Origin: Methanothrix sp.
GTDB taxonomy: Archaea > Halobacteriota > Methanosarcinia > Methanotrichales > Methanotrichaceae
DNA length: 33,332 nucleotides
Reading direction: 5' to 3'
Assembly: GCA_026394555.1 (NCBI GenBank)
Contig: JAPKXZ010000055.1
Coordinates: 1 to 33,332, forward strand
The notes below the pieces were generated by a model, which was not told where the DNA came from, ran no database searches, and worked only from the letters and a program-made list of their open reading frames with translations. The translations under genes and the position numbers were made by a program. Below, in pieces: positions 9,560 to 10,437 of this stretch (position 1 is the stretch's first letter; each line of letters opens with the position of its first letter).

Positions 9560-9707
9560 GCAGTGAAACTGCGGCGGCGCACCCACGCAGCAAGCTGCGG
9601 GGCATCCAAGACGCCGCCGCATGAAAACGGAATTCGGTCGAGCTGAAACAAACCTCAGTTGAATACGTATGGCCTTTATCCCCGCAGCAGAGCTGCTGGG
9701 TATTCAA
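9560..9707 (+). mobile_element. 3' relic of a TnpB-type IS200/IS605-group element with right-end hairpin
   Basis: A short frame (9560-9646) ends with THAASCGASKTPPHENGIRSS then TGA, which looks like the variable C-terminal tail of archaeal TnpB. The segment contains the inverted repeat GCGGCGGCG/CGCCGCCGC (9571-9579, 9612-9620). Just downstream is a compound hairpin: outer stem TTGAATAC/GTATTCAA (9659-9666, 9700-9707) around an imperfect inner CAGCA/TGCTG stem-loop. This is the layout of an IS605 right end, which also makes the 3' part of TnpB guide (omega) RNA. The catalytic part of tnpB is absent. TnpB identity is inferred from layout. Confidence 0.5.
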
Positions 9708-9729
9708 AATAATTAACTAGGAAATAACC

Positions 9730-9831
9730 TTGGCGATATTGGAATATCCAAAAGCCATAGTTGCCGAAAACATCAAGAAGCTGAAGGATAAAGGAGAACT
9801 CAATGCCGTTCATAGTGATGCTGTCTCTTGA
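9730..9831 (+). CDS. Small antitoxin-like fragment upstream of a RelE-like toxin
   Basis: A TTG-initiated frame of 33 residues (LAILEYPKAIVAENIKKLKD...), with AGGAAAT upstream, ends inside the following toxin frame. Position and overlap are typical of a RelB-type antitoxin gene preceding relE, but it is too short for the full family and starts only 22 bases after the IS605-type right end. It is probably the residual 3' end of an antitoxin gene truncated by that element. Confidence 0.35.
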   Translation: MAILEYPKAIVAENIKKLKDKGELNAVHSDAVS

Positions 9832-10039
9832 TGCTCAAAAATACCTTGATAGCTTGGATAAAAAACGCGCCGAGAATGTCAAGAAGCACCTTAAGGAGCT
9901 GGAGAAAGATCCTTTTAAGCCGCGAGCAGCTTGTGATATAGACATTGTGGCCGGTAGCGGTAGACCGCCCATGTACCGATTAAGAATGAGCGAATTTATA
10001 ACCAATGGAGATCTAAGAGGTATCAATGGCAACTGTTGA
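9803..10039 (+). pseudogene. Truncated RelE/ParE-type toxin
   Basis: A 78-residue frame. Residues 1-60 follow the archaeal RelE/ParE pattern: a basic helical segment LDKKRAENVKKHLKELEKDPF, then strands ending RPPMYRLRMSEF. After that, the usual final strands (the region around YRVIYxVxxxxIxVLxIxHR) are replaced by unrelated residues and a stop. GGAG precedes the ATG. The RelE fold needs the missing strands and catalytic residues, so this is likely an inactive remnant. The sequence after the break belongs to another antitoxin-like ORF. Confidence 0.6.
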
Positions 10040-10154
10040 AGTCCAAAAAGAGGATGTACTGGCAGCCTATGCAGATGAGCAATATAGGAAGCTCCAGAGA
10101 GAGAAGGATCAGTACATATCACTTGATGAGTATTGCGCCAAACGCGGCATTTAG
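10026..10154 (+). CDS. 42-residue antitoxin-like protein
   Basis: A small ORF with its own GAGGT upstream of the ATG. It starts MATVEVQKEDVLAAYADEQY and ends YISLDEYCAKRGI. Short charged proteins with an MAT(V/L)xVxKED start and a (S/T)xDEYxxKxG(I/L) end are common as RelB-like antitoxins in methanogens; here the middle is shorter than usual. It overlaps the end of the broken toxin frame by 14 bases, suggesting a recombined toxin-antitoxin locus. Confidence 0.4.
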   Translation: MATVEVQKEDVLAAYADEQYRKLQREKDQYISLDEYCAKRGI

Positions 10155-10196
10155 AAGGCGTATTACTATTTTTATAAATTCACCAAGACACACCTA

Positions 10197-10428
10197 TGTG
10201 TAGTCCCGAAACCTTTGACTTTATATACCCACCAATGGGGCCATGGGAAAGAAGAATAGAGTCGCAAAGCTAACAGATAGGAAGATCAGATATATCATTC
10301 GGGCCAAAAAGAGAGGCGAGAGCACCAAAAGGATCGCGGAGGATATGAAGGTGAGTGCGTCCTCTGTGAAGCGTGTCTGGATGCACTGGACGAAAACCAA
10401 AATGCCCCAAAACATTCGGGACTACACA
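10197..10428 (+). mobile_element. 232-bp mini-element with 13-bp TIRs carrying a transposase HTH domain
   Basis: TGTGTAGTCCCGA (10197-10209) recurs as its exact reverse complement TCGGGACTACACA (10416-10428). Between them lies a 64-codon ORF similar to the N-terminal HTH of ISA0963/IS481-like transposases, with its own TATA box (TTTATATA, about 10220). The TGT...ACA ends fit that family. The last codons of the ORF run through the right TIR. The catalytic domain is missing, so this is a deletion derivative or MITE relying on a full-length relative. No clear target-site duplication was found. Confidence 0.6.
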
Positions 10429-10437
10429 CATAAATAA
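10243..10437 (+). CDS. Stand-alone HTH protein derived from an ISA0963/IS481-like transposase
   Basis: A 64-residue basic protein starting MGKKNRVAKLTDRKIRYII. It continues with a homeodomain-like helix-turn-helix (STKRIAEDMKVSASSVKRVW, about residues 28-47) and ends shortly after, where the right inverted repeat begins. In the full-length family this domain precedes a DDE integrase core. The TATA box about 20 bases upstream suggests a leaderless transcript. If expressed, it could bind element ends and compete with intact transposase. The frame is intact with no stops in the HTH. Confidence 0.55.
   Translation: MGKKNRVAKLTDRKIRYIIRAKKRGESTKRIAEDMKVSASSVKRVWMHWTKTKMPQNIRDYTHK

Follow-up and report, generated by a model that had tools for sequence, protein, structure and literature searches.

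The 232-bp unit at positions 10197-10428 of the window (the whole stretch of 33,332 nucleotides of Methanothrix sp. DNA that was analysed) is an unremarkable remnant of a Methanothrix IS481-like element that has undergone internal deletion. With high confidence, it can be regarded as a dead, internally deleted copy of an ISA0963-type IS. The open HTH frame that it carries is most likely incidental, an accident of where the deletion fell, and not a dedicated repressor.

Ends of the unit and full-length relatives

The unit and its features are located as follows:

10197..10428, + strand: internally deleted IS481-like element, identified by blastn against the full-length IS of G013:C58 and by alignment with other copies
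10197..10210, + strand: left terminal inverted repeat, perfect over 14 bp, TGTGTAGTCCCGAA
10220..10227, + strand: TATA-like sequence TTTATATA, part of the extended terminal repeat
10243..10437, + strand: 64-aa ORF, consisting of transposase residues 1-57 (HTH), then IRDYT, then flanking DNA
10408..10416, + strand: deletion junction CAAAACATT; relatives carry this sequence at each of the two breakpoints
10415..10428, - strand: right terminal inverted repeat, perfect over 14 bp, TTCGGGACTACACA (complement of the left one)

According to blastn against G013:C58, the unit consists of positions 1-219 and 1041-1059 of a 1,059-bp IS. The initial annotation had given its coordinates exactly. The perfect inverted repeats described there do enclose the unit, but they comprise 14 bp instead of 13 bp (21 bp at 86%). 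The tips are not a product of chance, because identical ends delimit ISs of 1,059 bp in the genome of a sister species. The right end of the unit lacks GGACTTTATATAC, which in the full IS forms the inner part of the 32-37-bp repeat. A TATA box had also been proposed. The sequence TTTATATA is indeed there, but it is found at both ends of the full-length IS, within the 32-37-bp imperfect terminal repeats; as a component of these repeats, it is therefore no specific evidence for a promoter. An Rfam scan of the region gave a sub-threshold match only.

Searching the 232-bp unit against 60 relatives revealed similar sequences in 25 of 61 genomes, the genome of the window included. G013 contains two complete copies. 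Bordered by these tips, they are 1,059 bp long and encode a 322-aa transposase; their right tip has one mismatch to the 14-bp tip of the window. The full-length transposase L035 contains an rve/integrase core (PF00665, E 9.9e-8) and matches the IS481 model NF033577 with an E-value of 1.2e-44 and 152.9 bits, which is below the curated equivalog cut-off of NCBI (224 bits). The proposed derivation from an IS481/ISA0963-like element is correct: the genus contains full-length relatives that possess the same tips and a transposase matching the IS481 model. An exact target-site duplication of 16 bp flanks one copy (L122, G013:C5), and the more distant relatives L068 and L095 show duplications matching in 15/15 and 14/15 positions. 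No target-site duplication was found at the relatives L070 (1,040 bp) and L071 (1,032 bp).

The 984-bp copy L051 (G010:C248) was considered as an intact parent and rejected, as it is missing a segment that is present in L035 and includes the third catalytic residue (E). L051 shares with L028 (G010:C178, 677 bp) an in-frame transposase deletion of ~87 bp that removes this residue.

Deletion junction, copy number and insertion site

The join in the window falls within a 7-9-bp repeat (AAACATT, up to CAAAACATT). In relatives, CAAAACATT lies inside the transposase gene in G021:C22 and beside the right end in G010:C248. G021:C22, a longer relative cut by a contig end, contains GATGCCCCAAAACATTAAGAAATTTGG inside the transposase gene; the right ends of the IS read AGTCAAAACATTCGGGACTACACA (G010:C248) or AGTCCAAACATTCGGGACTACACA, and the window reads AATGCCCCAAAACATTCGGGACTACACA. 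In the alignment of the copies, one relative has GCCCCAAAACATTAAG, the right ends have GTC(A/C)AAACATTCGGG, and the window has GCCCCAAAACATTCGGG. Since the repeat is present at both breakpoints, the join can be explained by the deletion of about 0.8 kb at short homologies, for which a repeat of this kind is the usual signature. Origin, structure and junction homology of the unit are evident from these comparisons.

The unit goes back to an ancestral copy of about 1.06 kb, from which ~0.8 kb located between two short direct repeats was removed. Replication slippage or repair at short homologies is the probable cause, and of these we infer slippage. The deletion joined the left end, the start of the transposase and the HTH (~220 bp) to the last ~20 bp, and took out the inner half of the right inverted repeat, including its TTTATATA part.

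The genome of the window (G000) is a MAG of 2.53 Mb in 75 contigs, which is 96.5% complete. A search of this genome found the junction of the window in single copy. The remaining matches are either fragments or copies with different deletions, namely a 642-bp copy (C39), left-end pieces (C46, C40, C62), a right-end piece (C46) and, likewise on C39, a 31-bp piece in which two ends are fused. Deletion derivatives with other junctions, having lengths of 984, 728, 677, 303, 232 and 81 bp, exist in sister genomes. Pattern searches in 50 family genomes and a search of the genus with a 65-bp query detected a comparable junction only in the window and in G021:C104. There, the deletion occurred at the same microhomology, and the HTH frame is also open. 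The junction of G021:C104 differs in detail (GCTTCCAAACATT), its adjoining right flank is unrelated, and an inverted partial copy stands in place of its left tip. The simplest reading is that the deletion recurred at this microhomology. The mini copy as an amplified family was rejected, the junction being found in only two places across the 50 family genomes, in differing structures. The claim that the unit is "more than a simple MITE" is not supported: its junction is unique, it occurs once, and it is one among many differently deleted copies.

The unit might have been moved, as 232 bp, by a full-length transposase acting in trans, which would make it a non-autonomous, MITE-like mini-element whose coding content is irrelevant. 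Both 14-bp tips are intact, G021:C104 has a comparable junction, and a sister species harbours intact-looking full-length copies, with the 16-bp duplication at G013:C5. Nevertheless, mobility of this kind is unlikely: one copy per genome was found, in two genomes and with differing junctions, the right repeat has lost its inner half, and the G021 copy has no left tip and adjoins an inverted duplicate. Moreover, no target-site duplication of 3-26 bp was found around the window copy. Its right flank is conserved up to the element edge in G010 and G007, its left flank is found at other places in several genomes including G001, and an empty-site test found no genome in which both flanks are joined. 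Given the missing duplication and flanks that were never found joined, the original target site was probably rearranged.

A recognisable target-site duplication is also missing at the deleted two-ended copies L002, L028, L051, L119, L124, L126 and L130. In contrast, duplications of 15-16 bp flank the intact L122 as well as L068 and L095, two relatives; the intact-length L070 and L071 have none. Age or flank rearrangement are possible causes of the missing duplications at the deleted copies.

Left-end fragments (L003, L004 and L005, which are the G000 pieces on C46, C40 and C62, as well as L131 and L130) repeatedly break at IS positions ~66-74. This zone, a possible deletion hot spot, adjoins ATAAAGT; this motif forms an inverted repeat with ACTTTAT (positions 22-28) and is also present near the right end. 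L130 (G008:C267) and L131 (G021:C52) represent the 81-bp derivative. Their flanks match although they belong to two species, and they are an old, vertically inherited remnant. The solo end L005:613-684 (G000:C62) is a recombinant between two IS ends; it begins with 30 bp of the right-end type and continues as the left-end type.

Two further observations concern the sequence to the left of the unit. Positions 9600-9716 of the window contain a repeat of about 105-117 bp with the GC-rich, hairpin-like sequence CCCCGCAGCAGAGCTGCTGGG. This is a separate repeat family with roughly eight further copies in G000 and many in sister genomes (>10 in G010). The left flank proper (9802-10158) resembles a small gene pair also present in G001:C15, which by eye is RelE/antitoxin-like and gave no Pfam match. 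Compared to the G001:C15 copy, about 83 bp are absent near 9993-9996; the small ORF 9803-10039 may therefore be truncated.

The open HTH frame

The first ~57 residues of the 64-aa ORF match the N-terminus of the transposases of relatives, as expected from the initial annotation, which had called the ORF an open frame for the transposase HTH. The identity is 61% to one full-length transposase (E 1.4e-19) and about 90% to nearer relatives. Pfam yielded only sub-threshold HTH matches for the ORF (HTH_23, E 4e-4); the HTH identity is settled by the transposases of the relatives. The frame was said to end in the right repeat. In fact, it reads through this repeat as IRDYT and closes in host DNA, at a TAA (10435-10437) beyond the last base of the element (10428). 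Because the frame terminates in host DNA, the tail of the protein is set by the insertion site, and this is not how a carried gene would look.

A function had been proposed for this protein, namely that the element is kept for an HTH-only product which, as a natural repressor, would attach to the ends of full-length relatives and suppress their transposition. The frame is open, the 57 residues retain the HTH region of the transposase, and HTH-only fragments with an open frame exist in two sister species (the window and G021:C104). There is also precedent: HTH-containing or truncated transposase proteins such as InsA of IS1 and Inh of IS50 are inhibitors. A literature search for truncated transposases as inhibitors gave no papers with the terms used.

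Set against this are the absence of a full-length target in G000, the single copy, the halved right repeat and a protein tail that depends on the insertion site. A genus-wide search with the full transposase as query found only pieces of this IS481-like family, and no full-length transposase, in the 96.5%-complete G000. A full-length copy may possibly be missing from the assembly. However, none of the close matches in G000 lies at a repeat-broken contig end, unlike those in G022, G024 and G011, and a hidden multi-copy IS is therefore unlikely. Furthermore, the usual archaeal TATA-to-start spacing exceeds ~20 bp; here the distance from the centre of the TATA-like sequence to the downstream ATG is just ~20 bp, which would be short for an archaeal start at this site.

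The substitution pattern likewise shows no excess of silent changes. With the seven most similar copies as reference, the branch leading to the window has accumulated K6R, V8A, L37V and P39A plus one silent change in 57 codons. This ratio of 4 nonsynonymous to 1 synonymous changes agrees with the absence of constraint (neutral expectation: 76% nonsynonymous), but with five changes, weak purifying selection could easily escape detection. The probability that the frame stays open after 5 neutral changes is 0.80. Under the deletion scenario, the HTH frame would still be open because the deletion fell downstream of it and the time was too short for neutral closure.

Taken together, conservation of the element for a repressor is highly improbable. 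If it were true, archaea would possess a self-limiting control of ISs like that of bacterial ISs; the evidence points in the opposite direction. The same very low probability applies to the idea that HTH-only products, recurring at the same microhomology, serve as short-lived, self-made brakes on transposition where active copies remain. The HTH-only peptide may bind IS ends, a candidate activity that nothing marks as a function. We infer that the unit has none. It is a clean example of an archaeal IS that erodes through short-homology deletions, and it advises caution: a small HTH ORF that is intact and enclosed by inverted repeats is not necessarily a gene.

Comparison with known systems

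The full-length relatives resemble the archaeal ISA0963/ISMac4-like lineage of the IS481 family in their DDE (rve) transposase, which matches the IS481 model at a score under the curated cut-off, in their TG..CA ends, in their length of ~1.06 kb and in the 15-16-bp duplications that flank several of them. The window copy differs in that it has no catalytic domain, a halved right repeat and no target-site duplication. For ISMac4 and ISA0963-1, target-site duplications of 15 bp have been described (PMC10045372). The duplications of 15-16 bp fit the family name ISA0963, which is based on the initial annotation and on the duplication length.

MITEs have been described as internal-deletion derivatives of ISs (PMC3852290). 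Like these, the unit of the window is short, has kept both tips and stems from the internal deletion of a complete IS. In contrast to MITEs, it has not been amplified (one copy with a unique junction) and retains an open fragment of the transposase frame.

As a transposase fragment that would keep DNA binding, the peptide encoded in the window is similar to InsA of IS1 and Inh of IS50. Those proteins are regular products of an intact element, whereas the fragment of the window is the one-off product of a deletion; its stop codon lies in the flank, and the genome yielded no partner element.
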